From assembly GCF_003207795.1 (NCBI RefSeq), contig NZ_NIRT01000026.1, positions 1 to 39,248 of the forward strand: a DNA stretch of 39,248 nucleotides, in the 5' to 3' direction. The translations under genes and the position numbers were made by a program. Every line of letters begins with the position of its first letter. Position 1 is the stretch's first letter. Below are positions 3,771 to 38,080 of this stretch, piece by piece. Below the pieces are notes generated by a model that had not been told where the DNA came from, did no database searches, and saw only the letters and a list, made by a program, of their open reading frames with translations. Source of the DNA: Komagataeibacter nataicola. GTDB lineage: Bacteria; Pseudomonadota; Alphaproteobacteria; Acetobacterales; Acetobacteraceae.

Positions 3771-3851
3771 AAAAGTTTTTGGCGAAGCTTTTTTCAAAAA
3801 GCTTCGAAAGCACGCCACTTTTTTGAAAAAAGGCAGCACCTCAAACCTTCT
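3771..3851 (+). repeat. dispersed palindromic intergenic repeat, copy 1 (full length)
   Basis: A two-hairpin element. A left arm AAAAGTTTTTGG is followed by the perfect stem GAAGCTTTTT-TC-AAAAAGCTTC at 3784-3805 (half A). Then comes a weaker GCCACTTTTTTG/AAAAAAGGCAGC stem (half B) and a decayed right arm ending near CACCTCAAACC. It lies 3' of the 94-residue minus-strand gene and 5' of the M20 gene. It is one of about ten related copies in this window. Confidence 0.8.
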
Positions 3852-3859
3852 GTTTTTTT

Positions 3860-4144
3860 TCAGCACTGCCCGTGCAGGAAGCCCAGCGCGGGCAGGGGAC
3901 GCCACGCGCGGGGCAGGTCGGCACGGCGATAGGGGCGGATGCTGTACTGCGGCACGGCCACCGCATTGCGCTCGAGGAAGGCGCGGTAAGCCGCGACCTG
4001 CTGGTTGCGCCACACGCAATCGGCCTCGGCGGCTGCGCGGGTGGCATAGATGCTGGCGATGCGCGTCTCGCGCCCGGTGCGGGCTTCCACCGCCCAGGAT
4101 TCGTCACGCCGCGCCGTGTTGCGAAAAACGACAACCTTGCCCAT
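3860..4144 (-). CDS. small protein of unknown function (94 residues)
   Basis: I do not recognise this protein. The frame is supported by an ATG at 4144 with a GGGAG box about eight bases upstream and by non-repetitive composition. A longer frame exists upstream, but those extra residues lack a ribosome-binding site. The product begins MGKVVVFRNTARRDESW and is a basic, mostly polar protein with a central Ala/Arg-rich helix-like stretch (TRAAAEADCVWRNQQVAAYRAFLERN). It has no signal peptide or membrane segment and ends in GFLHGQC. It is divergent from lapA, with about 120 bases between the two starts, and a dispersed repeat follows its stop. It could be a conserved Acetobacteraceae protein or, less likely, a spurious frame. 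Confidence 0.6.
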   Translation of the reverse strand: MGKVVVFRNTARRDESWAVEARTGRETRIASIYATRAAAEADCVWRNQQVAAYRAFLERNAVAVPQYSIRPYRRADLPRAWRPLPALGFLHGQC

Positions 4145-4264
4145 TGCCCCGCTCCCTGCACCCTGTGTGGTACAGGCAACCATGCCCGTGCTGCGCGATC
4201 AAGGCAGCGCCGCATGAATTGATTTTCTTGCAGGGGCTGGGTGTTGAGGGTAGGGAACAGGATC

Positions 4265-4690
4265 ATGATACGTCTTTTCATCACCCTGCCCGTGACCGTG
4301 GCGCTGATCATTTTCGCGGCCTGCAACCAGGCGCCAGTGGAACTGTCATGGCTGCAGTGGAAGTGGACGTCATCCCCCGGCGTGCTGGCCCTGCTCGTGG
4401 CCGCGCTGTTCTATGCCACCGGCTCGGCCAGTGTGTGGGTCGTGGTGCTGCGCCAGATCCGCCGCGCGCGCCGTGCCGAGCAGGAACTGCGCGCCCTGCG
4501 CGCCAGCCTGCCTGATACCGATGCGCCCGCCCGCACGCCGGGGCTGACATCGGCCCCGGCCAATTCCCCCATGCTCAGGGCCCATGTCGCACAGCAGCCG
4601 GTCGAGACTGCGCCCGCGCCCGTGGCGGAACCGGCTCCTGAAGCGGCCCCTCAGCCGCCGGCGCTGCCCAGGCCGCCCGAGCACTCCTGA
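4265..4690 (+). CDS. lapA: LapA-domain inner-membrane protein (DUF1049)
   Basis: A 141-residue inner-membrane protein with the LapA/DUF1049 layout. A first hydrophobic segment at about residues 2-23 (MIRLFITLPVTVALIIF) is followed by a short loop with a QAPVELSW motif, a second membrane segment at about 36-60, and then a basic RQIRRARRAEQELRALRASL coiled-coil stretch facing the cytoplasm. In Enterobacteria LapA acts with LapB to control LpxC turnover and lipopolysaccharide assembly; that role here is inferred from family membership. The last 60 residues are a Pro/Ala-rich tail. I chose ATG 4265, preceded by AGGGAACAGG, over the in-frame GTG at 4241. pyrF follows after 40 bases on the same strand, an arrangement common in alphaproteobacteria. 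Confidence 0.82.
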   Translation: MIRLFITLPVTVALIIFAACNQAPVELSWLQWKWTSSPGVLALLVAALFYATGSASVWVVVLRQIRRARRAEQELRALRASLPDTDAPARTPGLTSAPANSPMLRAHVAQQPVETAPAPVAEPAPEAAPQPPALPRPPEHS

Positions 4691-4730
4691 CCCCGACCAA
4701 CCCGCCATTTCTGCTTCTGGAGCACCGCCA

Positions 4731-5450
4731 ATGAGCCATGGACGGTCCACCCGCCTGATCGTTGCCCTCGACACCAAGGACACCGCACAGGCCGTGAGCT
4801 GGCGCGAACAGGTTGCGGGGCCTGCGGGCATGGTCAAGCTGGGGCTTGAGTTCACCTATGCCTGCGGGCTCGATGCGGTGCGCAGGGCGGCAGGCGGGAG
4901 CCCGCTCTTCCTCGACCTCAAGCTGCACGATATTCCCAATACCGTGGCTTCGGCCATTGGCAGCCTGGCCGCACTCCGGCCTGCCATGCTGACCATCCAT
5001 GCCAGCGGTGGCCGCGCCATGATCGCCGCCGCCCGCAAGGCGGTTGACGAGACCTTTCCCGCAGATGCCCGCCCGCTGCTGCTGGCCGTGACCGTGCTGA
5101 CCAGCATGGATGAGACCGCCCTGCACGAAACCGGGGTGGAAGGCAGCGTGGAGGCCCAGGTGCTGCGTCTTGGTGCGCTGGCCATGGATTCCGGAGCGGA
5201 TGGGCTGGTCTGTTCCTCACACGAGATTGCGCCGCTGCGGGCAGCACTGGGTGACAGGCCGGTGCTGGTGGTGCCCGGCATCCGCCCGGCAGGCAGCGCC
5301 CTGGGCGACCAGAAACGCGTCATGACCCCGGCACAGGCCAGCGCCGCCGGGGCGGACTGGATCGTGGTGGGCCGCCCCATTACCCGCGCTGATGATCCTG
5401 CGGCTGCGGCGGCTGCGATTGCCGCCGAACTGGAAAAAGCACGCTCCTGA
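4731..5450 (+). CDS. pyrF: orotidine 5'-phosphate decarboxylase PyrF
   Basis: PyrF decarboxylates OMP to UMP, the last step of de novo pyrimidine synthesis. The 239-residue product has LIVALDTKDTAQA at the N-terminus, the catalytic motif LFLDLKLHDIPNTV (Asp-x-Lys-x-x-Asp) near residues 59-72 and the phosphate-binding end VVPGIRPAG...DWIVVGRPIT. The start at 4731 has a TGGAG box about nine bases upstream; in-frame codons further upstream lie inside lapA and are rejected. The TGA stop is embedded in the edge of a truncated intergenic repeat, so the last few residues (LEKARS) may have been set by that repeat. Confidence 0.96.
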   Translation: MSHGRSTRLIVALDTKDTAQAVSWREQVAGPAGMVKLGLEFTYACGLDAVRRAAGGSPLFLDLKLHDIPNTVASAIGSLAALRPAMLTIHASGGRAMIAAARKAVDETFPADARPLLLAVTVLTSMDETALHETGVEGSVEAQVLRLGALAMDSGADGLVCSSHEIAPLRAALGDRPVLVVPGIRPAGSALGDQKRVMTPAQASAAGADWIVVGRPITRADDPAAAAAAIAAELEKARS

Positions 5451-5480
5451 AAAAAGGCGGCGGCCCAAAACTTTTATAAA
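5450..5480 (+). repeat. dispersed intergenic repeat, copy 2 (3' half only)
   Basis: GAAAAAAGGCGGC followed by GGCCCAAAACTTTTAT matches the right half (half B plus right arm) of the repeat family. The left half is missing, and the copy begins within the pyrF stop codon. Confidence 0.65.
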
Positions 5481-5509
5481 TTCACACACACGATGGTGGT
5501 GGAATCATC

Positions 5510-6136
5510 ATGACAGTCAGGGTCAAGATATGCGGCATCCGTGACGGGGCGGGGCTGGACGCCGCCTGTGCGGCCGGGGCCGACTGGGTGGGGTTCGTGT
5601 TTTTCAGCCGCTCGCCCCGTCATGTCACGGCTCCGCAGGCTGCCCCGCTGGTGCGTCGCCTGCCGCACGATGGCCCGCGCGCCATTGGTCTGTTCGTGCG
5701 CCCGACAGATGATGAAATCCGTCACGTGCTGGATACGGTCGCACTCGACGGATTGCAGATCTATGACACCGCCACCCGTGCTGCTGCCATCCGCGTGCAG
5801 TTTGGCGTGCCGGTGTGGCTGGCTGCCGGTATTGCTGTCCGCGCCGATCTGCCACAAAGCTGCGCGGTCGATGGGCTGGTGATTGAATCCCGCCCGCCTG
5901 CCGGGGCGCAGCGGCCCGGCGGCAATGCCCGGACCTTTGACTGGAGCCTGACCGAGGGCTGGCAGGCCCCGGCCCCGTGGATGCTCGCCGGTGGCCTGCG
6001 GCCCGGTAACGTGCGCGAGGCCGTGAGGCTCAGCGGAGCACGGGCGGTGGATGTTTCATCAGGGGTGGAAACCGCCCCTGGCGTCAAGTCGCCCGCGTTG
6101 ATCCATGAATTCGTGCGGGCGGCCCACGGGCTTTAA
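5510..6136 (+). CDS. trpF: phosphoribosylanthranilate isomerase TrpF
   Basis: TrpF isomerises N-(5-phosphoribosyl)anthranilate to CdRP in tryptophan synthesis. The 208-residue TIM-barrel protein begins VRVKICGIRDG, with the catalytic Cys in KICG. It continues with ADWVGFVFFSRSPRHV and ends with AVDVSSGVETAPGVK, which holds the catalytic Asp and the phosphate-binding Ser-Gly. The gene lies 59 bases after pyrF, separated by a half repeat. Many alphaproteobacteria have trpB and trpA directly downstream, but here the next gene is a convergent unrelated one, so trpF is detached from trpBA. A purine-rich GGTGGTGGAA precedes the ATG. Confidence 0.96.
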   Translation: MTVRVKICGIRDGAGLDAACAAGADWVGFVFFSRSPRHVTAPQAAPLVRRLPHDGPRAIGLFVRPTDDEIRHVLDTVALDGLQIYDTATRAAAIRVQFGVPVWLAAGIAVRADLPQSCAVDGLVIESRPPAGAQRPGGNARTFDWSLTEGWQAPAPWMLAGGLRPGNVREAVRLSGARAVDVSSGVETAPGVKSPALIHEFVRAAHGL

Positions 6137-6205
6137 AAGTGTTTTGGTGCCGCTTTTACGAAGCTGTTTGAAAAAAGCCTCACCAAAAGCGTTCTTCCGT
6201 CTCAG
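6134..6205 (-). repeat. dispersed intergenic repeat, copy 3 (diverged)
   Basis: AAAAGTGTTTTGGTGCCGC opens the copy at the trpF stop codon. A GAAGC...GAAAAAAGC segment and the right arm CACCAAAAGCG follow. It sits between the convergent ends of trpF and the Tyr/Pro-rich gene, in B-then-A order. Confidence 0.7.
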
Positions 6206-6208
6206 ACC

Positions 6209-6535
6209 CTAGCGGTAATAGCCGTAATAGGCCGGAGGTGGCGGGGGTGGCGGCGGCGGATAGGCATAGACCGGGTAGGGCGGCGGCGGATAACCGTAGG
6301 CCGGATAGGCATACCCATAGCCATAAGGCCGGTAGCGATAGGGCGACATGGCCACGCCCAGCGCGGTGCCGGCGGCCATACCCATGCCAAAGCCACCCCA
6401 GCCCCAGCCACGGTGCCAGCCGCCGCCCCAACCGGGGCCGCCGCGCCAGCCACCACCCCATGCATGGGCGGAAGGGGCAGGCAGAACGCCGACCAATCCC
6501 ATGGATACAGCCAGCAGCAGGGCCAACTTACGCAT
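6209..6535 (-). CDS. secreted Gly/Tyr/Pro-rich small protein
   Basis: The 108-residue product begins with a clear signal peptide, MRKLALLLAVSMGLVGVLPA, with likely cleavage after AHA near residue 25. The mature part is low complexity: a Gly/Trp block (WGGGWRGGPGWGG), a short alanine-rich segment with PYRYRPYGYGYAYPAY, then a run of nine prolines and AYYGYYR. An AAAGGAACC ribosome-binding site precedes the ATG at 6535. I cannot assign a function. It may be a surface or periplasmic protein of the glycine-rich type common in acetic acid bacteria. Intergenic repeats flank it on both sides. Confidence 0.7.
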   Translation of the reverse strand: MRKLALLLAVSMGLVGVLPAPSAHAWGGGWRGGPGWGGGWHRGWGWGGFGMGMAAGTALGVAMSPYRYRPYGYGYAYPAYGYPPPPYPVYAYPPPPPPPPPAYYGYYR

Positions 6536-6687
6536 CTGACGGGTTCCTTTTTCGTAGCGATACAGAACCGATATTGGCACGGATTGGCCAGATATCCAGA
6601 TCCGATGCCTCACCGTTCCGTGATGTTGTATGTCAGAACACTCCTGGAACAGGGCGTTTTCATGACAGTGTGCCCTCTTCCGACAGA

Positions 6688-6770
6688 TAAACGTTTTTGG
6701 GTGCTGCATTTTTTCAAAAAGACGGCGTTCTGCCGAAGCGTTTTGAAAAAAGCTGCACCAGAAACGTTTG
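6688..6770 (-). repeat. dispersed intergenic repeat, copy 4 (full length)
   Basis: Both outer arms are intact: AAACGTTTTTGGGTG on the left and CACCAGAAACGTTT on the right. Inside are a TTTTTTCAAAAA stem (half B, decayed) and a GAAGCGTTTTGAAAAAAGC segment (half A). The copy ends a few bases from the stop of the DUF721 gene. Confidence 0.8.
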
Positions 6771-6774
6771 CCTT

Positions 6775-7275
6775 TCAGCGACCCTGCCGGGCGCGGAGCC
6801 ATCCGCCCAGTGAAGCCAGCGCCTCTTTCAGCGGGCCATCAGGCATGTCGTCAATTTCCACGGGCGGCGGTGGTCTGCGCGGCGGGGCTGGGGGAGCGGC
6901 CTGCCGGGGTGGTGCGAGCAGATCCTGCACCATTTTCAGCCGCTTGACCACGCCAGTGCCGCAGGTGGTGTTGATGCGGGCAATGACGGTGGGAGCGAGA
7001 TGTTGCAGTTCCATCGCCACAGGCCCCTGGCAGCCCACCGTCAGCGTGCCGGCGGAGAGCTTGCGCGGCACGGTCAGCGCTGCCAGATGCGGGCCGACAA
7101 TATCCGCCCAGTCCGTCATCACCTGCACGGCGGCAGCCGACTGCCTGCGAAAGACCGGCTGGCTGATCTGGGGCAGGAGTGCCGCCATGCTGCGCGCGCG
7201 AAAGGCCCGGCGCGGCGGCTCGGCGGGAGCGTGGGCTTCGTTCTTTTTCTTGCTGCGTGGCGGCGGGTTCGTCAT
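6775..7275 (-). CDS. DUF721 (DciA-like) protein
   Basis: The 166-residue product has a basic N-terminal extension (PPPRSKKKNEAHAP), then a DUF721 domain at about residues 28-115. That domain includes TDWADIVGPHLAALTVPRKL and VGCQGPVAMELQHLAPTVIARIN. A Pro-rich linker and a short acidic/helical tail follow. DUF721 proteins include DciA, the replicative-helicase loader or operator of bacteria without DnaC; that role is inferred here. It lies next to mutY, as is common in alphaproteobacteria. The ATG at 7275 is only ten bases from the likely mutY start on the other strand, and its ribosome-binding site is weak. A later in-frame Met (MAALLPQIS) is an alternative. Confidence 0.8.
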   Translation of the reverse strand: MTNPPPRSKKKNEAHAPAEPPRRAFRARSMAALLPQISQPVFRRQSAAAVQVMTDWADIVGPHLAALTVPRKLSAGTLTVGCQGPVAMELQHLAPTVIARINTTCGTGVVKRLKMVQDLLAPPRQAAPPAPPRRPPPPVEIDDMPDGPLKEALASLGGWLRARQGR

Positions 7276-7285
7276 AAACGGGTCC

Positions 7286-8359
7286 GTGTTACCTTGTGCT
7301 ACCGATCTGTTACGCTGGTATGACCGGCACCGTCGCATTCTGCCATGGCGCGCGCTGCCCGGCCAGAAAATTGATCCCTATCGGGTCTGGCTGAGCGAGA
7401 TCATGCTCCAGCAGACCACGGTCACGGCGGTCATGCCCTATTTCGAGCGTTTCCTCGCGGCTTTCCCCGACGTCACGGCACTGGCCCGCGCGCCGCAGGA
7501 CCGGGTCATGGCGCTGTGGGCAGGGCTTGGCTACTACGCGCGTGCGCGTAACCTGCATGCCTGCGCGCAGGCCGTGGCGGCGCGGGGCGGGGTTTTTCCC
7601 GATACGGTGGAAGGGCTGCTGGAACTGCCGGGAATCGGCGCCTATACGGCAGCGGCCATTGCCGCCATCGCCTTTGGCCGCCCCGTAGTGCCGGTAGACG
7701 GCAACGTGGAGCGCGTGACCAGCCGCCTGTTCGCCCTGACCGACCCGCTGCCTGCGGCCCGCAAGGCCATTGCCGCCCGCGCCGTGACCCTGAACGCGGA
7801 TGCGCAGGCGAAAGCCCGCCCCTCCGATTTCGCGCAGGCCCTGTTTGACCTCGGGGCTGGCATCTGCACGCCGCGCAGCCCCGCCTGCGTGCTGTGCCCG
7901 TGGCGCGAAGCCTGTGCGGGCCATGCGCAGGGCATTGCCGCCACCCTGCCGCGTCGCGCGCCCAAACCCGTGCGGCCCGTGCGGCATGGCGTACATTTCT
8001 GCCTTGTGGATGAAGCCGGGGGCCTGCTGCTGGTCCGCCGCCCCGAAAAGGGGCTGCTTGGCGGCATGATGGGCCTGCCGGGGCCGCACTGGCGCGATGA
8101 CCCGTGGCCTGAGGCCGAGGCGCTGAGCCTTGCCCCGGCAGCGCCCCGCCTGCAACCACACTGGCGCATGGTGGGGCAGGTGAAGCATGTCTTCACCCAT
8201 TTCACCCTGCTGGTGGATGTGTACGCAGCGCGGATTGCGGCCTTTCCCAACAGTATGGCGGCGGCGGGATGCGTGCATTACCCCGGTGACGCAGCCGTGG
8301 CGCTGCCCTCGCTCATGGACAAATGCGTAAAGGTTGCACGCAAGGCCGGTATTTTTTGA
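7286..8359 (+). CDS. mutY: A/G-specific adenine glycosylase MutY
   Basis: MutY removes adenine mispaired with 8-oxoguanine. Visible features in the 357-residue product are SEIMLQQTTV with the catalytic Glu, the helix-hairpin-helix LPGIGAYTAAAI, VDGNVERV with the catalytic Asp, and the [4Fe-4S] motif C-x6-C-x2-C-x5-C in CTPRSPACVLCPWREAC. A C-terminal NUDIX-like domain for 8-oxoG recognition (HFCLVDEAGGLLLVRRPEKGLLGG) follows. The frame stays open far upstream through the DUF721 gene, but homology starts at LLRWYDRHRRILPW. The GTG at 7286, twelve or so residues before that, gives the expected length, and no ATG is available nearby. The start is therefore inferred. It is divergent from the DUF721 gene. 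Confidence 0.95.
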   Translation: MLPCATDLLRWYDRHRRILPWRALPGQKIDPYRVWLSEIMLQQTTVTAVMPYFERFLAAFPDVTALARAPQDRVMALWAGLGYYARARNLHACAQAVAARGGVFPDTVEGLLELPGIGAYTAAAIAAIAFGRPVVPVDGNVERVTSRLFALTDPLPAARKAIAARAVTLNADAQAKARPSDFAQALFDLGAGICTPRSPACVLCPWREACAGHAQGIAATLPRRAPKPVRPVRHGVHFCLVDEAGGLLLVRRPEKGLLGGMMGLPGPHWRDDPWPEAEALSLAPAAPRLQPHWRMVGQVKHVFTHFTLLVDVYAARIAAFPNSMAAAGCVHYPGDAAVALPSLMDKCVKVARKAGIF

Positions 8360-8419
8360 TTGACGCCGCCCTGATCGGCGCGGTTGAGTAACGGGTGTCC
8401 GATCAGGAAAGGGACCGTG

Positions 8420-8542
8420 ATGTTCGCTTTTGTCCAGATGCTTTCCCCCGTTGTGGCCCTGCTGGGCCTTGTTGCCGCCACCCGTTACTGTTCAGCTCCC
8501 GCGCGCGCCATGCAGCCGGTCCGGGTGCGCGCCCGGCGCTAG
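8420..8542 (+). CDS. 40-residue putative membrane or exported peptide
   Basis: Between mutY and hemH a short frame starts at ATG 8420 behind a strong purine box, AGGAAAGGG, at suitable spacing. It encodes MFAFVQMLSPVVALLGL and continues with a hydrophobic stretch to about residue 22, a Cys, an APARA sequence resembling a signal-peptidase site, and a basic Arg-rich tail (RVRARR). I do not recognise it. The ribosome-binding site and the membrane-like composition support a real small protein, but the length is too short for certainty. Confidence 0.45.
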   Translation: MFAFVQMLSPVVALLGLVAATRYCSAPARAMQPVRVRARR

Positions 8543-8613
8543 GATGCCCCCGTGCGGGGTGATGATCCGCTGTTCTTTTGCATCGCCCTCCGGCTTCCTG
8601 TAGCAGCCGAAGC

Positions 8614-9669
8614 ATGACATTCATTACCGTAAAGCGCGCGGCGGGGCATGAGGATGCGCCGCCGCGCACCGGGGTACTGCTGAGCAATCTTGGCACCCCC
8701 GATGGCACCGGCTATGGCGCGGTGCGTCGTTATCTGGCCGAATTCCTGTCAGACCGGCGCATTATCGAAGCCAGTCCCGTGATCTGGAAACCGATCCTGT
8801 ATGGCCCGGTGCTGACCTTCCGCCCGCGCAGGTCGGGCGAGGCCTATCATCGCATCTGGCATCATGACCGTGATGAAAGCCCGCTGCGCACCTACACGCG
8901 CGACCAGGCGGAAATGCTGGCCACTCGGCTGGCCGGTGATGACGTGCCGGTGGCGTGGGGCATGCGTTATGGCCAGCCCTCCATAAAGCAGGCGTTGCAT
9001 GAGCTGGTGGCGCAGGGGTGTGATCGTATCCTGCTTGCCCCGCTTTACCCGCAATACAGCGCCACCACCACGGCCACCGCCAACGACCAGGCGTTTCGTG
9101 CCCTCATGCGGCTGCGTAACCAGCCCGCCATCCGCACCCTGCCGCCCTTTGCCGACCATCCGGCCTATATCGCGGCCCTCGGGCGCTCGATCACGGCCCG
9201 GCTCGAAACGCTTGATTTCAAGCCGCAGATGATTGTCGCCTCCTTCCATGGCCTGCCCAGGGTCTATGTGGAAAAGGGCGACAGCTATGCCGATGAATGC
9301 GCGCGCACCATCATCGCGCTGCGTCGCGCCATGGGATATGACGCGCAGATGATGCCGCTCACCTTCCAGTCCCGCTTTGGCCCGGCCAAGTGGCTGGAAC
9401 CCTATACCGCGCCGTTTATCGAGTCGCTGCCCGCGCAGGGCATCGAGCGCATTGCGGTGATTACGCCGGGCTTCATTTCCGACTGTATTGAAACGCTCGA
9501 TGAAATCGGCAACGAGGCGGCGGAAGACTTCATCAAGGCTGGGGGCAAGGAACTGGCGCTGATCCCGTGCCTGAACAACTCGCCCGATGCCATAGACCTG
9601 CTCGAGACCCTGGTGCGCGAGGAACTGGCAGGCTGGCTGCCACGTAAACCGGCAGCCCCGGCTGGCTAA
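8614..9669 (+). CDS. hemH: ferrochelatase HemH
   Basis: HemH inserts Fe(II) into protoporphyrin IX, the last step of protoheme synthesis. The 351-residue product has the N-terminal signature GVLLSNLGTPDG, SFHGLPRVYVEKGD with the catalytic/metal His, and the ETLDEIGNEAAEDF helix with the conserved Glu residues near the C-terminus. Pro/Arg-rich loops (FRPRRSGEAY) are also typical. The ATG at 8614 gives the family length; an in-frame TTG at 8578 would add twelve residues. Neither has a strong ribosome-binding site. The enzyme supplies heme used by the heme A synthase and cytochrome c maturation genes elsewhere in this window. Confidence 0.96.
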   Translation: MTFITVKRAAGHEDAPPRTGVLLSNLGTPDGTGYGAVRRYLAEFLSDRRIIEASPVIWKPILYGPVLTFRPRRSGEAYHRIWHHDRDESPLRTYTRDQAEMLATRLAGDDVPVAWGMRYGQPSIKQALHELVAQGCDRILLAPLYPQYSATTTATANDQAFRALMRLRNQPAIRTLPPFADHPAYIAALGRSITARLETLDFKPQMIVASFHGLPRVYVEKGDSYADECARTIIALRRAMGYDAQMMPLTFQSRFGPAKWLEPYTAPFIESLPAQGIERIAVITPGFISDCIETLDEIGNEAAEDFIKAGGKELALIPCLNNSPDAIDLLETLVREELAGWLPRKPAAPAG

Positions 9670-9693
9670 GGCCATTCATGCCCGCAGACCAGA

Positions 9694-9773
9694 GAACGCT
9701 TCTGGTGAAGCTTTTTTCGAACAGCGTCAGGAAGTGCCGCCTTCGGGGAAAAAGGCGGCACCCGAAAATATAG
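9694..9773 (+). repeat. dispersed intergenic repeat, copy 5 (full length)
   Basis: CTGGTGAAGCTTTTTTCG (half A, right arm of the stem decayed) is followed by the perfect ten-base stem GTGCCGCCTT/AAGGCGGCAC at 9734-9743 and 9752-9761 (half B) and a right arm CACCCGAAAAT. It separates the convergent ends of hemH and the Gly/Trp-rich gene. Confidence 0.8.
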
Positions 9774-9785
9774 ATAATGCCCCGG

Positions 9786-10385
9786 TCAGGGCCGGTCGCA
9801 GCTTTCGGTCAGGTCGTTATAGACCTGCCCTTTGGGGCACGAAGCCCGCGGGCGCTGCGGCGTAGGCTGGCCCTGGCCCTGCATGCCGGGCTGCGGCTGT
9901 GCCGGAGCGGGTGCCAGCAGGGTGGACAGATCCTTGTCATAGACGGAGTCGTCTTCGGGTGCGTTATTGCCCGTGGCGTTATAGACTTCGGGTGCGGCCC
10001 GATAGCTGGCACTTGCCGCGGCAGCCCCCATCGCGGCCCCCGCGCCATAATAGCCGGGCCAGCCCCAGCCCCAGCCTCCCCAGCCACCGCCCCAGCCCCA
10101 TCCGCCCATGGGGTAACCCCAGCCGACATAGCCGGGGTAGTAGCCAGCACCCCATCCGCCCCAGCCCCATCCGCCATGCCATCCGCCCCAGCCGCCGCCG
10201 CCATGCCATCCGCCACCACCACCGCGCCAGCCCCCGCCACCACCATGCCAGCCTCCACCGCCGCCGCGAGGGCCGCCACCGCCAAAGCCACCCCCGTGGG
10301 GGGCAGCCTGGGCGGGCAGGCTCAGTGAGCCGCATGCGATCAGTGCCAGCGTCACGCCTGTCAGTGCCTGTTTCAGCTTGTGCAT
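9786..10385 (-). CDS. secreted Gly/Trp/His-rich protein
   Basis: The 199-residue product starts MHKLKQALTGVTLALIAC and has a signal peptide with a likely cleavage site after AQA at about residue 31. Residues about 33-105 are nearly pure Gly, Trp and His (GGGWHGG-type repeats) and pass into a Tyr/Pro/Gly stretch. The C-terminal third is different: an Ala-rich stretch, an acidic NNAPEDDSVYDKDL segment, a Pro/Gln linker and a small end domain CPKGQVYNDLTESC with two cysteines that could pair. An AGGA box lies eight bases before the ATG at 10385; a second in-frame Met five codons upstream is possible. No function is recognised. It resembles the Tyr/Pro-rich protein at 6209 in layout but not in sequence. 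Confidence 0.7.
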   Translation of the reverse strand: MHKLKQALTGVTLALIACGSLSLPAQAAPHGGGFGGGGPRGGGGGWHGGGGGWRGGGGGWHGGGGWGGWHGGWGWGGWGAGYYPGYVGWGYPMGGWGWGGGWGGWGWGWPGYYGAGAAMGAAAASASYRAAPEVYNATGNNAPEDDSVYDKDLSTLLAPAPAQPQPGMQGQGQPTPQRPRASCPKGQVYNDLTESCDRP

Positions 10386-10796
10386 GTTCCATTCCTGCAT
10401 GTCTTGATGGGGTTTATCGCAGAAAATCACCGATCGGGAAAAGACGCGGCAACGCCCGGTTCCATAACGCAGGGACAGTCAGGCCGGATGCCTGCCTGGC
10501 CACCAGTAAGGGGTGGACAGCGGGCGGGTCTGTGTTCCCTGTTCATGAACGGCATTTCTGCCCGGTTTGGCCCGATGTGCAAGCGTGGGGCGCCGGGTGG
10601 TAACACTCCGTAGCATATGCTCGGCGGTTCACGCCGCCCCATGGCTGTGAAACCGTTATCGCAACGGGCAAGACTTGGAAGCTGTCTGAAGCGCGTTATG
10701 TTACTTCAGAACCCATAAAAGTTTCCGGGGTCGCCTCTTTTCAAAAAAGCGCCCCCCAAAAAAACTCCGGATGATCCGTCGCGTCTTTCAGCAGGA
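10386..10796. other. 411-base gap without a recognised gene
   Basis: This gap lies upstream of the Gly/Trp-rich gene and downstream of ctaA (both minus strand). I find no convincing coding frame. It holds a short GGCG-GTTCA-CGCC hairpin near 10624-10636 and, at its right end, a shortened copy of the dispersed repeat. The promoter of the Gly/Trp-rich gene should be in the part nearest 10386. A small RNA is possible, but nothing in the sequence proves it. Confidence 0.5.
10716..10770. repeat. dispersed intergenic repeat, copy 6 (internally shortened)
   Basis: An ATAAAAGTTTCCGGGG arm, a CTCTTTTCAAAAAAGCG segment and a CCCCCAAAAAAACTCCGG arm remain, so one internal hairpin has been lost. It lies just 3' of the minus-strand ctaA gene. 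Confidence 0.6.
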
Positions 10797-11897: not shown

Positions 11898-11984
11898 AAC
11901 CGGATTTAGACTGGCCTTGCAGTCAGCCGCAAGGCGATGCTAGGCGCGAAGGAACATATATTCCTCCACAACCGGGATGCACGC

Positions 11985-12677: not shown

Positions 12678-12763
12678 ATTGCAGCGATGTTGTAATTAGA
12701 GGGTGAAAAAATGGACCGCGCTGGTCTACTAGTCCCCACTGTCTTTTAATATTGGAGCGCCTC

Positions 12764-14062: not shown

Positions 14063-14246
14063 AATCTTCTTTCTCCCCGCCCTGACGCGTGATGGGTGCC
14101 AAAGCATGGGCGAGGGGTGCGGATGGGGTTGTCGGGCTGGCGCGTGGCGGCTACAGCGGGGGGCCGTCCAGTGGGCGACAGTTTCGTGAACGGGGCGTGT
14201 ATGTCCCGGATTTGTATGACCATGCAACGGGGACCGTGCACCGATC

Positions 14247-17148: not shown

Positions 17149-17193
17149 GGCGCAGCGGGATTTCTATGCTGATACTCATGAGGAACGTGATCT

Positions 17194-17230
17194 GAAGCTT
17201 TTTGAAAAAAGCTTCGCCAAAAACATTCTT
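17194..17230 (-). repeat. dispersed intergenic repeat, copy 7 (half)
   Basis: The perfect stem GAAGCTTTTT-GA-AAAAAGCTTC at 17194-17215 (half A) is followed by the arm GCCAAAAACATT. Half B is absent. It lies between the convergent ends of the FUSC gene and accC, just before a strong terminator. Confidence 0.8.
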
Positions 17231-17252
17231 ATGTTTTCAGGCCGGTCATAAA

Positions 17253-17288
17253 AAAAGCGACCCCTGCTTGCTGGCAGGGGTCGCTTTT
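17253..17288. terminator. strong bidirectional intrinsic terminator between FUSC gene and accC
   Basis: A perfect fifteen-base stem AAAAGCGACCCCTGC/GCAGGGGTCGCTTTT with a six-base loop TTGCTG. The A-run and T-run at its two ends let it work in both directions, serving the two convergent genes. Confidence 0.93.
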
Positions 17289-17325
17289 CTGTTTTGAGGC
17301 GCGATGGCAATCAGGCTGTGATCGC

Positions 17326-19723: not shown

Positions 19724-20266
19724 ATGACAGGAAAAACCGATCACCAGCGCGCGGGCGGCGAACGGAGCGGCAATACGGCGCGCTTCGGGGCAACCGTGGC
19801 GGTAGCGTGCCTGATGCTGGCGACATCGGGCCTGCTCAACGCGGCGCAGGCGGCGGCGCGCCATGCGGTGGCCACCACCCGGCACGGGGGCCGCGCCAGC
19901 GTAAGGCGGCCGCCCGCCATGGCGCATGTGCCTGCGAACTGGAACCAGCACGGCCTGGCCAGCTGGTATGGCACGGGCAGGCAGAGCGGGCACGCCACCG
20001 CCTCGGGCGAGCAGTTCGACCCTGATGCGCTGACCGCCGCCCACGCCCAGCTGCCGCTGGGCACGCGGGTCAGGGTGCATGCCCTCAGCACCGGGCGCTC
20101 GGTCGTGGTCCGGGTCAATGACAGGGGGCCGTATCATGGGCATCGCATCATCGACCTGTCGCCCGAGGCCGCGCGGCAACTCGGCATCCTGGGCCGTGGT
20201 GTCTCGACAGTGGAAATAGAACCCGCGCGCGGGGCGGATGAGGAAGTGGCCAGCGCCACGCGCTAG
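19724..20266 (+). CDS. rlpA: RlpA-like septal-ring lytic transglycosylase family protein
   Basis: The 180-residue product has an N-terminal hydrophobic export segment (about residues 22-42, ending AAQAAARHA), a basic linker and a double-psi beta-barrel at about 75-165. The barrel carries the RlpA signatures GLASWYGTGRQSGHATASGEQFD, AAHAQLPLGTRVRV, VVVRVNDRGPYHGHRIIDLS and AARQLGI. RlpA proteins act in the periplasm on peptidoglycan stripped of stem peptides. No SPOR domain is present and I see no clear lipobox, so this is a short form. The ATG at 19724 is preferred over 19694. Confidence 0.88.
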   Translation: MTGKTDHQRAGGERSGNTARFGATVAVACLMLATSGLLNAAQAAARHAVATTRHGGRASVRRPPAMAHVPANWNQHGLASWYGTGRQSGHATASGEQFDPDALTAAHAQLPLGTRVRVHALSTGRSVVVRVNDRGPYHGHRIIDLSPEAARQLGILGRGVSTVEIEPARGADEEVASATR

Positions 20267-20322: not shown

Positions 20323-20362
20323 GAAAGTTGCTGGTGAAGCTTTTTTCAGAAAGCTGAAGCCT
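20323..20362 (+). repeat. dispersed intergenic repeat, copy 8 (5' half)
   Basis: GAAAGTTGCTGGTGAAGC, TTTTTTCAGAAAGC and TGAAGCCTCACGCG correspond to the left arm and half A of the family. The copy lies between the convergent ends of the RlpA-like gene and the BrkB-family gene. Confidence 0.7.
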
Positions 20363-27715: not shown

Positions 27716-27725
27716 AGAGATGAGG

Positions 27726-27760: not shown

Positions 27761-27904
27761 ATGGCCGCTCATCTATGCGTGAGTGGTATAAGTTACCTCT
27801 GCGTTAAACACATATCGGCGGTGCCTTTTCTCTGTATTGTGTATAAATACGATGCCGTTTAAAGCCGGGATAGTGTAATAACATGCCGGATATGATGAGG
27901 CCCC

Positions 27905-28801: not shown

Positions 28802-28825
28802 ATATAAAGAATTGATAAAAAACAA

Positions 28826-28906
28826 TAAAAGTTTTTGGATGCCGCCTTTGTTCAAAAGGCGGCGTTTTTCTGAAGCGTTTTGAAAACAGCTTAACCAGAA
28901 ACTTTC
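28826..28906 (-). repeat. dispersed intergenic repeat, copy 9 (full length)
   Basis: ATAAAAGTTTTTGGAT opens the copy. A perfect nine-base stem GCCGCCTTT/AAAGGCGGC at 28841-28849 and 28855-28863 (half B), GAAGCGTTTTGAAAACAGC (half A) and the right arm ACCAGAAACTTTCAG follow. It lies between the convergent ends of the LysR gene and the 311-residue membrane protein. Confidence 0.85.
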
Positions 28907-28915
28907 AGGTGCCGT

Positions 28916-29851: not shown

Positions 29852-29917
29852 TCAGCAGGCCATGCCTTTCGCCATGCAGGAGGCCACGGGGGCAGCGCGG
29901 AACAGCGTGGCCATGGG

Positions 29918-31824: not shown

Positions 31825-31906
31825 GCGTACATAATGTGTGCGAGGCGGGGCGGATGGCAAGATGTTAAGAGAGAGGAAATGTAACCCCCGCGTACCCATA
31901 TAGTCC

Positions 31907-31935
31907 TTGCGGTAAGACATGGCGTGACCTATGTT
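31907..31935 (+). promoter_or_regulatory. candidate promoter of the rimP-nusA-infB operon
   Basis: TTGCGG at 31907-31912 and TATGTT at 31930-31935 are separated by exactly seventeen bases and match sigma-70 spacing. Transcription would begin near 31942, which excludes the ATG at 31931 as the rimP start. Confidence 0.5.
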
Positions 31936-31954
31936 GCGGATTATTCCTTCATTT

Positions 31955-32620
31955 ATGGTTTTTTCTTTGGGGGGTGGCCGCAGGGCTGCCTTTTTTGCAT
32001 TGGACGCTGATCTGCCTTTCCTGTCGGGCCTCGATGCCCGCATCGCCGCAATGGTCGCCCCCGCGCTGGCCGACATGGGGTTTGACCTCGTGCGCGTGGC
32101 GGTGCTGGGCCGCGAGTCCCCTACCGTGCAGATCATGGCGGACCGTGCCGATGGCACGCTCCTCGTCATTGAGGACTGCGAGCAGATCAGCCATGCGGTT
32201 GGCGCGATACTGGACGTGGAAGACCCGCTGCCCGGCGCGTGGACGCTGGAGGTCTCGTCGCCCGGTATCGACCGTCCGCTGACGCGCGCGAAGGACTGGG
32301 AGCGTTTTGCCGGTCACCTTGCCCGCGCCGAGATGAACCTGCCCATTGAAGGCCGCAAGCGTTTTGCCGGGATCGTGCTCGGCGCGCGCGAGGGCCATGG
32401 CCTGATGCGGCTCGATGACGGGAGCGAGGTTTCACTGCCTTTCGCTGAAATGCGCAAGGCGCGCCTTGTCCTGACCGATGAACTGATCGAGGCGAGCGCC
32501 CGGATGATGAAGCCGGCCGCAAGCCCCGAGGAGACTGGCCTGGAGAAAGACCCTTCCCCGGCTGAAGACCGCAAGCCCGGTGTTAAGTCGGGTCGCAAGT
32601 CGGCCCGCAAGGCCAATTGA
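31955..32620 (+). CDS. rimP: ribosome maturation factor RimP
   Basis: RimP assists 30S subunit maturation. The product has the DUF150 fold. An N-terminal alpha/beta domain includes [25 protein letters not shown] and [38 protein letters not shown] is the family signature, and an SH3-like C-terminal barrel follows ([24 protein letters not shown]). A Lys/Arg-rich tail of about 40 residues extends past it. The start is uncertain: ATG 31955 has no ribosome-binding site, ATG 31931 overlaps the likely -10 box, and a TTG at 31999 begins closer to the conserved part. It is the first gene of the nusA-infB operon. Confidence 0.92.
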
Positions 32621-32640
32621 ACGATGTTGTGGAGACACTG

Positions 32641-34179
32641 ATGGATACGTCCGTTGCCCGTCCCGAACTGCTGCTGGTGGCCGATGCCGTAGCGCGGGAA
32701 AAGTCGATTGACCGCGAGGAAGTGCTCGAAGCGATGGAGCAGGCCATCCAGAAGGCCGGCCGCGCGAAATACGGTCATGAAAAGGATATCCGCGCCACCA
32801 TCGACCGCCGCACCGGCGATGTGCGCCTGTCGCGCTGGACCGAGGCGGTCGAGGCGGTGGAGAACGAGGAAACACAGATCCCGCTCTACATCGCGCGCAA
32901 GTTCAAGCCCGAGATCCAGCTTGGCGAATACCTGATCGACCCGCTGCCGCCCATCGATTTCGGGCGCATCGCGGCGCAGACGGCCAAGCAGGTCATTGTC
33001 CAGCGCGTGCGTGAATATGAGCGCCGCCGCCAGTTCAATGACTTCAAGGACCGCGTGGGCGAGATCGTCAACGGCACCGTCAAGCGCACGGAATATGGCA
33101 ACCTGCTTGTCGAGATCGGCGATGCGGAAGCCCTGCTGCGCCGCGATGAGCTGATCCCGCGTGAAAGCTTCCGCAACTCCGATCGCGTGCGCGCCTATAT
33201 CTATGACGTGCGTGACGAGCCGCGTGGCCCGCAGATCTTCCTTTCGCGCACGCATCCGGCGTTCCTCGCCAAGCTGTTCGCGCAGGAAGTGCCCGAGATC
33301 TATGATGGCATCATCGAGATCAAGGCCGTGGCGCGTGATCCCGGTTCACGTGCCAAGATGGCCGTCATCTCGCGTGATGCCTCGATCGACCCCGTCGGCG
33401 CCTGCGTGGGCGTGCGTGGCCGCCGCGTGCAGGAAGTGGTCAAGGAACTCCAGGGCGAGAAAATCGATATCATTCCCTGGAGCCCGCAGGCCGCGACCTT
33501 CGTGGTCAACGCCCTCGCCCCGGCTGAAGTCAGCAAGGTGGTGATGGATGAGGAAGCGGGCCGCGTCGAGGTTGTCGTGCCCGATGACCAGCTCAGCCTG
33601 GCCATCGGTCGCCGCGGCCAGAACGTGCGCCTTGCCAGCCAGCTGACGCGCTGGGACATCGACATCCTGACCGAGGCCGAGGAATCGGAGCGCCGTCAGG
33701 AAGAATTCCGCCGCCGCAGCAACCTGTTTGTTGAAGCGCTTGATGTGGATGATGTCATCGCGGGCCTGCTTGTGACCGAGGGGTTCCATTCCATCGAGGA
33801 ACTGGCTTTTGCCGACCCCGAGGAACTGGCCGGCATCGAAGGCTTTGATGAGGACGTGGCCAGCGAACTGGTCCGCCGCGCCGAAGGCTATCTGGCGGGT
33901 CAGGAAGAAGAACTCGACAACAAGCGCCGCACGCTGGGCGTGAGCGATGATATCGCCGTGCTGGGCGTGTTCACCAACCAGATGCTGGTGACGCTGGGTG
34001 AAAAAGGCGTGAAGACGCTGGATGACCTGGCCGACCTGGCTGGTGACGAACTCGTCGAGATTCTGGGCAGCGATGCCATTGACGAGGACGCGGCCAACGA
34101 GATCATCATGGCGGCGCGCGCCCACTGGTTCGATGGTGATGAGGCGAAGCCCGCGCAAGAGGAGACGTCCGACGTCTGA
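32641..34179 (+). CDS. nusA: transcription termination/antitermination factor NusA
   Basis: NusA binds RNA polymerase and nascent RNA and controls pausing, termination and antitermination. The 512-residue product has the N-terminal polymerase-binding domain (residues 1-125), an S1 domain ([28 protein letters not shown]), two KH domains ([31 protein letters not shown] and [23 protein letters not shown]), and an alphaproteobacterial C-terminal part with two acidic helix-hairpin-helix repeats. The ATG at 32641 has a TGGAGA box close upstream and lies 20 bases after rimP. Confidence 0.97.
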
Positions 34180-34213
34180 GCAAACCGACCTTAACGCGGA
34201 AGATCAGGAAGGC

Positions 34214-34846
34214 ATGGAGCCTGAAGAGCGCGGTCCGCTGCGCCGTTGCGCCGTGACCCGGCTCCGGCTGCCCAAGGAGGAAATGATCCGGTTTGTCATT
34301 TCCCCCGATGGAGTCGTGATCCCTGATCTTTCCGCACGGCTGCCCGGACGGGGAATTTGGTTGAGCGCACGCGCGGATGTGCTAGAAACAGCACGCACAC
34401 GCGGCGTATTTGCTCGCGCGGCGAGGGGAAGGGTTGTTATTCCCCCTGACCTGACCCATCTTGTGCAGGATGGTCTTCTGCGGCGCATGATGGATGTCGC
34501 AGGGCTTGCACGGCGGGCCGGGCAGATTGTCTGTGGTTTCGCCAAGGTGCGTGAGTGGGTTGTGGGCGGTCGTGCCGGTCTGGTCATACAGGCCGCCGAT
34601 GGCAGCCCCGACGAGAGGAAGAGAGTTTTGTCTGGTGCACGGGAACTGCCGGTTGTGGCTGTTCCTACGGCATTGGGTCTGGGTGCGGCATTTGGCCGCG
34701 ACCATGTTGTTCATGCAGCGATTCTGCATGGTGAACTGGCGCGTCGATTCCGTATCGAGAGTGAACGTTTTGCGGGTCTGTCCGGCAGGATTGGCCCGAA
34801 TTCGGCGGATCGTTCCGCCGGACGGTGTGAACAGGCGGGTACATGA
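34214..34846 (+). CDS. ylxR: YlxR (DUF448) fused to an L7Ae-like RNA-binding domain
   Basis: The 210-residue product joins two RNA-binding modules that are separate proteins (YlxR and YlxQ) in Firmicutes. Residues 5-85 are the YlxR/DUF448 domain ([41 protein letters not shown]). Residues about 95-190 are an L7Ae/L30e-like domain ([38 protein letters not shown]). The fusion is frequent in alphaproteobacteria. The ATG at 34214 follows AGGAAGG closely. The stop overlaps the infB ATG by four bases. A function in ribosome or RNA metabolism is inferred from the domains and operon. Confidence 0.9.
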
Positions 34847-37536
34847 GCGAAGGCAACGATCAGGATCAGGGTAAGGGACGCTTGTCTCTGCGGCCGGCGG
34901 GCCGCAGGGAGGTCGGACGGACGGTAGATGCCGGTTCCGTGCGACAGAGCTTCAGCCATGGTCGTTCAAAGGTGGTTCAGGTCGAGGTGCGCAAGAAGCG
35001 CGGGGCCGGGGCCGCAGGTAACGGATCGGGGCCGGCTGGCGGTCGCGCCGGTGGTCGGGGCGGTCGCGCGCTGACGGCAGCGGAACTGGCGACACGCCAG
35101 CGCGTGCTTGATGAGCAGCGCCGCGCCGCCATCCAGCGCGAGAAAGAGGCTCGAGAGCAGGAGAAGATCACGATCCTCTCCGCTGCGGAAGAAGCCCGCC
35201 GCGCTGAAGAGGAAAATGCCCGCCGCGCCGAAGAAGAGGCACGCGCCAAGGCAGATGCCGCCGCTGCGGTCGAGGAAGCCCGCAAGCAGGAGGCCAGCAA
35301 TGCGCCTGCCCCTGCAGCGCCCGACTCGACAGATCCCGCGGGTCCGGTTGTTTCGTCCGTGCCCATTCCCGGTGAAGTGACGCTGGCCCCCCCGATGCAG
35401 CGCCTGCGCCCGCTGGCCGAGCGCGCGATCATGCCCGCCCAGCCGCTGCGTCCGTCGCGCCCTGCTGGTGGTGGTGGTGCCGCCACTTCACGCCCCGCAG
35501 GCGGTGCTGGCGAGACGCTGCGCCTGCGCACGGGCCGTGCGGATGGTGGCGAGGAAGAACGTCGTCCCAGTCGTCGCCCTGGCAATGCCGTGCCGAACCG
35601 CCGCCCCTCGGGTGGCGCCAAGAAAAACAACGACAGCCGCCGTGCTGGCCGCATTGACGTGCAGGCCGCGATCGAAGGGGATGACGACAAGACCCGTTCG
35701 CTCGCCTCGGTCCGCCGCCAGCGCGAGCGCGAGCGCCGTCAGGCCGAACTTGAACGCCTGCGCTCCGACCAGGTGCGCGTGGTGCGCGATGTTGTCCTGC
35801 CCGAGAGCATTACGGTGCAGGAACTCGCCAACCGCATGGCCGCCCGTCAGGGTGAGGTCATCAAGGCGCTGATGAAGATGGGCGTGATGGCCACCGTGAC
35901 CCAGTCGCTCGACGCGGACACGGCGGAACTGATCGTGCAGGAATTCGGCCATCGCGTGCGCCGTGTTTCCGACAGTGATGTCGAGATCGGCATCGAGGGC
36001 ATTGAGGACAGTGAAGAAGATCTGCGGCCGCGTCCGCCGGTCGTGACCGTGATGGGTCATGTCGATCACGGCAAGACCTCGCTGCTCGACGCGCTGCGCA
36101 CCACCGATGTCGCCAATGGCGAAGCCGGTGGCATTACGCAGCATATCGGTGCGTATCAGGTCACGCTGGCCTCGGGTGCCAAGATCACCTTCATCGATAC
36201 GCCGGGCCATGAGGCGTTTACCGCCATGCGTGCCCGTGGCGCCTCGGTGACCGACGTGGTCATTCTGGTGGTGGCCGCCGATGACGGCGTGATGCCGCAG
36301 ACGATCGAGGCCATCAAGCACGCCAAGGCGGCTGATGCTCCGATCATCGTGGCCATCAACAAGTGCGACAAGCCGGGTGCGAACCCCGACCGCGTGCGCC
36401 AGGAACTGCTGAACCACGAGATCGTGGTGGAAAGCATGGGTGGCGATACGCAGGATGTCGAGGTCTCGGCGCTCAAGCGCACGGGTCTGGACAAGCTTGA
36501 GGAAGCGATCCTGTTGCAGGCCGAAATCCTTGACCTCAAGGCCAATCCCGACCGGGTGGCCGAAGGCTCGGTGATTGAAAGCCGCCTTGACCGTGGGCGT
36601 GGTCCGGTTGCGACCGTGCTGGTCCAGAAGGGCACGCTGCGCCGCACCGACATCGTGGTGGCCGGGGCCGAATGGGGCCGCGTGCGCGCCATGATCGACG
36701 ACCGCAACCGCCAGCTTGGCGAGGCGGGTCCGTCCATGCCGGTTGAAATCTTGGGTATTACCGGGGTGCCGGGCGCGGGTGAGCCGTTCGTGGTGGTGGA
36801 AAACGAGAACCGCGCCCGCGAAATCTCCGAGTTCCGCCAGCGCGTGATCAAGGAACGCATGGCCGCTGGCCAGACGGCCGCACGCGGCACGCTCGACCAG
36901 ATGCTTGCCCGCATTCAGGCCGGCGCGCAGAAGGAAGTTGCGGTTCTGATCAAGGCCGACGTGCAGGGTTCGGCGGAGGCGCTTGAAGCCACCGTGCAGA
37001 AGCTGGAGCATGAGGAAGTCAAGATCCGCGTGCTCAACGCCACCGTGGGCCAGATTACGGAAAGCGACGTGCAGCTGGCCAAGGCATCGGGTGCGATCAT
37101 CATCGCGTTCAATGTCCGCGCTACGGCGCAGGCCCGTGAGCTTGCACAGCGCGAGGGCGTGGACATCCGCTACTACTCGATCATCTACCAGGTGGCGGAT
37201 GACGTGGAGCAGCTGGTGCGTGGCAAGATCGCGCCCAAGCATCGCGAGAAGTTCCTGGGTTATGCCGAGATCCGCAAGGTTTTCGAAATTACCAAGGTGG
37301 GCAAGGTTGCTGGCTGCTACGTGACCGAAGGTGTGGTCAAGCGTGGCTGTGGCGTGCGCCTGCTGCGTGACAACGTCGTGATCCACGAAGGCGAGCTGAG
37401 CCAGCTCAAGCGCTTCAAGGATGACGTCAAGGAAGTGGCGCGCGGTTACGAATGCGGCCTGTCCTTTGCCGGGTATAATGACCTGCGCGAGGGTGACGTG
37501 GTCGAGTGTTATGAAATGGAACTCGTCCCGGCATGA
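34843..37536 (+). CDS. infB: translation initiation factor IF-2
   Basis: IF-2 is the GTPase that brings initiator tRNA to the ribosome. The 897-residue product has a long charged, Ala/Pro/Arg-rich N-terminal region (about 1-300) with a Glu/Ala/Arg helical stretch, then an IF2_N domain. The G domain follows, with G1 [12 protein letters not shown] near residue 404, G3 DTPGHEAF, G4 NKCD and a SALK-type G5. The beta-barrel, the linker and the fMet-tRNA-binding C2 domain come after that, ending [12 protein letters not shown]. It starts inside the ylxR stop (ATGA) and ends inside the rbfA start (ATGA), so the three are coupled. Confidence 0.98.
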
Positions 37537-37979
37537 GCCGCAATTCATCCAGAAAAGGGATGAGCGAGAACGGGCCGGCAGGGAAACTTGCCGGCCATTC
37601 CGCGTCTGGTCCCTCGCAGCGCCAGCTGCGCGTGGCGGAAGAAGTCCGTCGTGTGCTGGCGGAAATATTTGCCCGCACCGAATTCCGTGACCCGGATCTG
37701 GCCGATGTGCGCATTACGGTTACCGAAGTGCGTATTTCGCCCGACCTCAAGCATGCCACGGTATTCGTGGCGCGGCTGGGCCGGAGCGACGTAGCGGAAC
37801 TGCTGCCTGCGCTCAAGCGTGTGACGCCGTTCCTGCGCACCCGCCTATCGCACGCGCTCAGGCTGCGTGGCGTGCCGGACCTGCACTTCCAGCCTGACAC
37901 GGCGCTCGATTACGCCATGGAAGTCGATACTATGCTGCGCCAGCCTGAAGTGCAGCGCGACCTCAAGGATGAAGACTGA
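37533..37979 (+). CDS. rbfA: 30S ribosome-binding factor RbfA
   Basis: RbfA is a cold-shock-associated factor in late 30S assembly and 16S rRNA 5'-end maturation. The 148-residue product has a polar N-terminal extension of about 28 residues and then the KH-like RbfA fold. [42 protein letters not shown] (with the Ala-kink segment) and [24 protein letters not shown] are all typical. It begins at ATG 37533, overlapping the infB stop. An in-frame ATG nine codons later is possible but lacks the coupling. It is the last gene of the operon; no truB or rpsO follows in the window. Confidence 0.96.
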
Positions 37980-38035
37980 GCTGCACGGCAGATCGGGTGG
38001 TTTTGATCTGACTTACGCTGTGGCTCCCTGAAACA

Positions 38036-38080
38036 GTAAAATGTTTTGGTGAAGCTTTTGCAAAAAGCTTCAGATGGCAC
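38036..38080 (+). repeat. dispersed intergenic repeat, copy 10 (5' half)
   Basis: AGTAAAATGTTTTGGT is followed by the stem GAAGCTTTT-GC-AAAAAGCTTC (38051-38071) and CAGATGGC. This is the left arm plus half A. It lies between the convergent ends of rbfA and the MCE gene. Confidence 0.8.

Follow-up and report, generated by a model that had tools for sequence, protein, structure and literature searches.

Repetitive extragenic palindromic (REP) sequences and bacterial interspersed mosaic elements (BIMEs) lie downstream of coding regions, between co-directional and convergent open reading frames (ORFs), where they occur as inverted pairs whose termini sometimes overlap a stop codon; Acetobacteraceae are listed among the families without CGTC repeats (PMC3733652). 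MITEAba12 of Acinetobacter is a short, non-autonomous miniature inverted-repeat transposable element (MITE) that is mobilized by a co-resident insertion sequence (IS), generates 9-bp duplications and carries stop codons inside; it is reported to have no predicted terminator and no orientation preference (PMC6382973). Here we analyze a 39,248-bp stretch of the Komagataeibacter nataicola genome (NZ_NIRT01000026.1; the window), which has a base composition of 64% GC, is contig 30 of a 3.67-Mb draft and carries a double-hairpin repeat at the ends of its genes.

Our best reading is that the repeat belongs to a new MITE family whose 3'-end niche resembles that of REP sequences. The copies are probably a 162-bp IS5-type MITE and its decayed remains, found or kept almost only downstream of genes. 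Like IS5-family insertion sequences and MITEs of the IS1031 group, of which duplication of a TNA triplet is a trait, the element has ends that begin with GAG and 3-bp TNA duplications; unlike them, it carries a large double-hairpin core that is found at 3' ends. The element of this genome that we take to be IS1031-like, from its length and ends, has other ends (GAGCCTGATCCGAAAGTTTT). With REP and BIME sequences the MITE core shares its position 3' of genes, its rarity in divergent gaps, an inverted pair and the capacity to overlap a stop codon, but the MITE is 162 bp long, has DDE-type ends and duplications, and no REP-associated tyrosine transposase (RAYT) was found in the genome. MITEAba12 is likewise a short non-autonomous element with internal stop codons and with target duplications, which measure 9 bp rather than the 3 bp seen here. 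We regard the surviving palindromic core as the most unusual trait of the family. Literature searches, judged by title or the start of the abstract, found no report of such a MITE in Komagataeibacter.

A 162-bp element with inverted ends and target duplications

The repeat has the consensus TAAAAGTTTTTGGTGAAGCTTTTTTCAAAAAGCTTCAGAAGAACGCCGCCTTTTTGAAAAAAGGCGGCACCCAAAAACTTTTA, in which an outer stem closes two hairpins (-38.5 kcal/mol, z -7). This 82-nt palindromic core comprises two related arm-plus-hairpin units in inverted order, so that a half copy corresponds to one unit. Some copies, both elsewhere in this genome and at the orthologous junctions of its relatives, form part of a longer sequence with GAGACTGTTTGAAAA-like ends. 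The complete element, about 162 bp and too short for a transposase gene, bears GAGACTGTTTGAAAA as inverted terminal repeats at both ends; 19 copies from seven genomes are exact at both ends and measure 161-165 bp. A perfect 3-bp target duplication flanks 18 of these 19 copies, 17 times as TNA and once as ATA. The exact GAGACTGTTTGAAAA 15-mer is present in 18 of 19 Komagataeibacter genomes and absent from a backward control. These ends and duplications establish the mobile nature of the repeat. Few copies in this genome keep both ends. An earlier reading of the window from its sequence alone (the sequence-only reading) had proposed a REP- or MITE-like spread; the MITE-like part is borne out by the 162-bp length, the inverted ends and the 3-bp duplications, but the unit then seen is only the core of the element.

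The 19 genomes contain 149 exact ends, from which 59 stretches were examined, 19 with a visible end pair and 40 with single exact ends (30 from genome G161, 6 from G162 and 4 from G165, a relative used for comparison below). They yielded 47 rows and 46 distinct copies, here called young, of which 39 have both neighboring genes called. Most young copies are 160-163 bp long (range 148-165), and 31 of the 46 have a duplication, which is TNA in 28. Two observations in this wider set count against an IS5-type MITE: 15 of the 46 copies lack a matching duplication, and 15 of the 59 stretches have an exact end without a partner end.

The element is frequent in Komagataeibacter and also in a sister genus, probably Novacetimonas. 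In a family search of 150 genomes, 10 gave any match, and only the own genus (three genomes including this one) and g73 (two genomes) reached the 30 matches scored per genome. For orientation among these species, the ferrochelatase of the window is 97% identical to that of K. melomenusus and 94-95% identical to those of K. xylinus strains.

Copies lie downstream of genes

Placement was sampled over 839 kb of this genome, consisting of the window plus 800 kb from six contigs, and over 800 kb of G165. An nhmmer profile trained on copies in the 839 kb recovered 104 merged elements there at E<=0.05, 52 of them at least 70 nt long, while a Markov-1 control of the same size gave no match at E<=1. 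A covariance-model search of the whole genome found at least 150 cores, all those listed at E<=7.1e-4. Among gaps of at least 30 bp in the 839 kb, a copy is held by 47 of 82 convergent, 41 of 282 co-directional and 7 of 102 divergent gaps; one element falls within a gene call, and two others lack a flanking pair. The corresponding numbers in G165 are 66 of 92, 43 of 276 and 5 of 110. Of the elements placed in gaps, divergent gaps thus hold 7 of 101 in this genome and 5 of 117 in G165, where about 32 would be expected by length in each (P=2e-9 and P=9e-11), and even these divergent counts are probably too high because our home-made gene caller misses genes such as dciA. The alternative that copies occupy the gap types in proportion to gap length, named at the outset as the outcome that would tell against a 3'-end element, was not seen in either sample. 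The 3'-end placement first noticed in the window holds there without exception and elsewhere is a strong bias, not an absolute rule.

Copies in co-directional gaps sit close to the upstream gene, at a median of 22 nt from its stop codon in this genome; 33 of 44 are within 40 nt of that stop and 4 of 44 within 40 nt of the downstream start. Orientation B, in which a GC hairpin is followed by a U-rich stretch, is taken by 29 of 42 co-directional copies when this genome and the young copies are pooled (P=0.02). In G165 alone the figure is 17 of 28 (17:11, P=0.34), which counts against a function of the core.

The bias is already present in young copies. The 39 classifiable ones comprise 21 in convergent, 18 in co-directional and none in divergent gaps, against shares of 16%, 56% and 28% (27.6%) expected from the TNA sites of this genome and G165, rather than of the young copies' own genomes (P=7e-8 for convergent, P=3e-6 for divergent). 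Seven further young copies are unclassified, and for two of these (L148 and L185) the only gene is one whose start faces the copy. For ten young copies the insertion site coincides exactly with a stop codon (expected share 12.6%, P=0.02), and eight of the ten have a matching duplication; 16 of the 46 have an older core no more than 150 bp away. Since the bias exists in copies with intact ends, it need not reflect function; it may arise either from insertion targeting or from rapid purging from promoters and genes.

Copies in the window

All ten positions named by the sequence-only reading carry the repeat, both by sequence and as ten merged elements of the profile search, in which the four full-length copies span 3770-3850, 6689-6769, 9695-9770 and 28827-28906. 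Both orientations and half copies occur, as had been described. By covariance model 4 of the 10 copies are full-length, the others being halves, partial copies or a half plus flank:

3770..3852, plus strand: full core in orientation A, 3' of ORF 3860-4144 (minus strand); covariance E 2.6e-15, nhmmer E 1.4e-20.
5442..5475, plus strand: half core directly 3' of the pyrF stop codon, one of an ortholog pair; nhmmer E 5.9e-4.
6135..6193, minus strand: partial core overlapping the trpF stop codon TAA in the convergent gap trpF/ORF6209; nhmmer E 1.3e-7.
6688..6770, minus strand: full core in orientation B, 3' of dciA (stop at 6775, Pfam DciA); covariance E 5.4e-15.
9693..9774, plus strand: full core in orientation A in the convergent gap hemH/ORF9786; covariance E 1.1e-10.
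10717..10763, minus strand: partial copy with one hairpin, 3' of ctaA; nhmmer E 5.5e-4.
17184..17264, minus strand: half core plus flank in the convergent gap FUSC/accC, adjoining a canonical terminator near 17250-17291; nhmmer E 1.9e-9.
20323..20356, plus strand: half core 3' of BrkB; nhmmer E 2.0e-6.
28826..28907, minus strand: full core in orientation B in the convergent gap LysR/ORF28916; covariance E 6.5e-15.
38038..38082, plus strand: half core in the convergent gap rbfA/MlaD, where a canonical terminator lies next to it (by eye); nhmmer E 8.7e-7.

Nearly all convergent junctions of the window hold a copy, as previously noted, but we count six pairs, five of them with a copy, where seven and six had been given. 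Both partners have Pfam matches in FUSC/AccC, CopC/CcmB and RbfA/MlaD; in trpF/ORF6209, hemH/ORF9786 and LysR/ORF28916 one partner has none, and tblastn found relatives of ORF6209 and ORF9786. A seventh pair with a copy (ORF 19724-20266, plus strand, and BrkB, minus strand) comes from the gene caller alone, whose runs disagree on the strand. The lone exception is indeed CopC/CcmB, with a gap of 9 bp. No divergent gap of the window has a copy; here too the observation stands with a lower count, six gaps instead of seven. The gene caller placed copy 6689 in a 'divergent' gap by missing dciA (6775-7338, minus strand), whose 3' end the copy follows.

Three window copies folded on both strands gave z from -0.4 (3769-3853, plus strand) to -5.7, and copy 6688 prefers a single long hairpin. 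None of 4227 Rfam families reached its gathering score in the window. On the accC side of the FUSC/accC gap, a canonical bidirectional terminator (17250-17291) is seen by eye here and in the six other species shown; these terminators differ in sequence among species and are present with or without the repeat.

Orthologous junctions

Comparison of 178 orthologous junctions between this genome and G165 found an element in both at 33, here only at 3 and in G165 only at 3. By eye, one of the G165-only junctions has a full copy here, and others of the six show remnants on the 'lacking' side. More distant species show a mosaic of presence and absence. A core lies at the place of copy 3770 in K. melomenusus, two K. 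xylinus strains and G. entanii, and none was found at E<=0.05 in the seven other Komagataeibacter species whose locus covers the junction. G165 has a full core in place of the pyrF half core and a copy with a MITE arm at the ctaA junction; copy 20323 was not found at the G165 ortholog. Presence also varies among species at the place of copy 9693 in the hemH/ORF9786 gap. Leaving G. entanii aside, ten Gluconacetobacter species lack an element at the hemH locus. By eye, the hemH stop codon of Novacetimonas hansenii is followed at once by a canonical terminator, and in N. maltaceti and G. entanii the element lies between the stop and that terminator.

Among nine ortholog pairs that are full-length in both species, three have inverted cores. 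At 28826 in the window and at C35:120121 the flanks are shared between species, and at 28826 a MITE arm remnant on the left (ATTGATAAAAAACAAT) is shared too, so that the core has flipped inside its arms, as template switching in the palindrome or conversion by another copy would bring about. Such exchange between palindromic cores might also keep cores alike without selection while arms decay. We think this unlikely as the general explanation, given that orthologous cores differ by about 23% on average and that 52 of the 104 merged elements do not reach 70 nt; the three inversions, two of them in place between shared flanks, are what speak for it.

Cores outnumber arm remnants

In 1.64 Mb, the two core halves gave 156 and 173 matches (329) and the two arms 15 and 23 (38), about 9 to 1 in a profile test that may miss the arms of older subfamilies. 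The models of halves and arms, derived from young MITEs, mainly of other species, and seven older ones, are about equal in length, and those of the arms are the more informative (36-38 vs 31 bits). All but one of the 38 arm matches adjoin a core, and at 72 of 116 full cores neither side scores as an arm above the 95% null. Identity to the majority consensus is 0.85 for the core and 0.57 and 0.58 for the arms (null 0.50 and 0.47), a comparison that understates the arms because subfamilies differ, a limit that the profile test shares in part. Either arms are lost sooner than cores, or there are also cores that arise without arms.

The second case would follow if the 82-nt core were an older, independent mobile unit that was captured by an IS5-type MITE, core-only copies never having had arms. 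It would account for the 9 of 16 cores with at least 92% consensus match that have no detectable arm on either side, for the core-only state common to some orthologs and for several edges that read GATAAAAG...CTTTTATC. However, the sequence that directly flanks core-only copies has on average the composition pattern of the MITE arm, one or two eroded arms persist on many copies, and neither a duplication nor an enzyme for the core's own edges was found, no separate search having been made. In our estimate this origin is improbable.

If cores outlive arms, selection for a function at the 3' end is one reading of their survival. Most 3'-end copies would then be exapted as the working terminators or mRNA 3'-end stabilizers of their genes, in which an A-tract, the double hairpin and a T-tract are maintained and the arms lost, a possibility that deserves weight even though we lean against it. 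Besides the survival of the core itself, core-only copies are A-rich upstream and T-rich downstream over about 8 nt on each side in a window of 64% GC, copies in co-directional gaps lie at the short distance from the upstream stop given above, and the pooled orientation bias favors the strand that reads a GC hairpin plus a U-rich tract. The A-tract, stem and T-tract around core-only copies and the convergent placement are also those of bidirectional intrinsic terminators, but the core is a three-way junction with an AU-rich base stem, and canonical terminators of other sequence coexist with it in some gaps. The A- and T-rich flanks equally resemble residual MITE arm.

Several tests tell against such a function, and the bidirectional terminator, mRNA stabilizer and topological element suggested by the sequence-only reading remain conjectures. 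From 38 arm-pair candidates, 36 were full cores and 35 were aligned and counted; since the RNAalifold consensus gave only 6 pairs, with hairpins misaligned, pairing was counted on consensus-anchored rows. Compensatory changes number 13 in these 35 cores vs 12.4 in shuffles, and broken pairs 150 vs 152. The identity of orthologous cores equals that of the rest of the gap (0.77 in both; 0.90 for gene ends), the core being the more alike in 14 of 32 pairs. In a naive comparison of short convergent gaps, canonical terminators are depleted where a core is present (7 of 69 vs 10 of 21 without, P=0.0005), as replacement by the core would predict; we rejected this replacement, because the depletion vanishes with size-matched pieces (26 of 112 vs a mean of 18; co-directional 14 of 80 vs 19). 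Beside young copies, canonical terminators occur at 14 of 21 convergent sites (10 expected) and 8 of 18 co-directional sites (5 expected). The core consensus scores as a canonical terminator in orientation B only; just 45 of 119 full cores score as one, each in a single direction.

A possible course of events

We envisage that the MITE lands, or is kept, almost only downstream of genes. Every TNA target reads as TAA or TGA on one of its two strands, so that a copy landing on such a stop codon would duplicate and retain the stop without harm; insertions into genes and promoters would be purged or never made. The arms would vanish over time and the core would stay, often 5-30 nt from the stop codon. 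More weakly, the core hairpins may serve some genes as 3'-end hairpins, acting either as an exonuclease barrier or, in orientation B, as an intrinsic terminator, a use that would explain why the core outlives the arms. Taken as a whole, the picture of a transposon that supplies gene ends, with TNA landings on stops, more than half of convergent junctions re-equipped, arms discarded and a working core kept, is speculative and in our view doubtful.

On the preferred reading of an IS5-type MITE, a DDE-type element has come to occupy the 3'-end niche that REP elements reach with a RAYT, in genera used for cellulose and vinegar. Young copies are found alongside old ones, and orthologous junctions vary between relatives; this makes targeting, selection and function at gene ends directly testable against each other. 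Strain engineering can use the MITE as a marker and must also reckon with it as a hazard, since a copy is present in over half of the convergent gaps of at least 30 bp in the two Komagataeibacter samples.

Candidate mobilizing enzymes

The sequence-only reading had proposed a look for a RAYT-like or other transposase with matching ends. Spread of the repeat as REP/BIME elements by a RAYT, a Y1 tyrosine transposase, would fit the similar placement, inverted dimers and high copy number described for REP sequences (PMC3733652). In addition, CGTC adjoins the GC hairpin on the B strand in the majority-consensus linker of the copies in this genome (GAAGACGCC). The genome, however, has no Y1_Tnp match (PF01797), where 5 of 14 control genomes are positive; the young MITE consensus lacks CGTC, and neither consensus has GTAG (by eye). 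As the ends and duplications fit an IS5-family DDE enzyme, a RAYT origin is very improbable and disfavored here unless a RAYT outside PF01797 exists.

We infer instead that an IS5-family transposase would move the MITE in trans. The candidate partner is a 1,397-bp element in G162 (G162:C62, L292:866-2262) with TTA on both sides, which encodes a DUF4096 plus DDE_Tnp_1 transposase, as in the IS5 family. Its right end agrees with one MITE subfamily's left end in 19 of 20 nt (score 35; best of 20 shuffles 27). Among matches listed at E<=1e-30 in the 19 genomes, transposases at least 90% identical occur only in G162, the source, and in G161, there as 92% identical fragments at contig ends; G162 and G161 are also the genomes with the most exact ends (24 and 47).

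A number of findings weigh against this assignment. The left end of the 1,397-bp element is diverged and was placed by eye where a duplication fits, its G161 relatives differ in that end too, and the other MITE end scores 25 against it, equal to shuffles (25). Transposases of this type in the present genome are only 41-45% identical, two of the four with internal stops. Further candidates, 883-884 bp long, resemble GAGCCTGTTTG(G/A)AAA at their ends. They have no 3-bp duplication that matches, and over a longer end their scores are at or barely above those of shuffles. The genus does contain IS5-family elements whose ends are similar, but no autonomous element matching the MITE at both ends was found among the genus candidates.

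Three copies of the candidate IS (G162:C62, G161:C16 and G161:C48; L292, L301 and L302, the last two from base 1) are about 91% alike at the transposase end and resemble each other at the right end, with DNA that differs from copy to copy in between; the element is perhaps an IS with changing cargo. A further IS candidate, G162:C52:11044-12089 (L145:1545-2590), was rejected since its MITE ends flank another gene. With MITE copies at both ends and 1,046 bp in total, it resembles a small composite transposon, and the flanked gene has what we take to be a cytochrome-c-like CxxCH motif. Elsewhere, a MITE copy lies 15 nt after an IS630-type transposase gene on a N. hansenii plasmid (L165:1419-2662), and one in G135 (L162:1001-1162) follows a DDE transposase gene at a distance of about 55 nt and coincides with the stop codon of the gene that faces it. 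The window itself contains, close to the contig's left end, a weak DDE_Tnp_1 match (229-432, minus strand; 22.3 bits, below the cut-off) with one internal stop, which is perhaps a transposase remnant.

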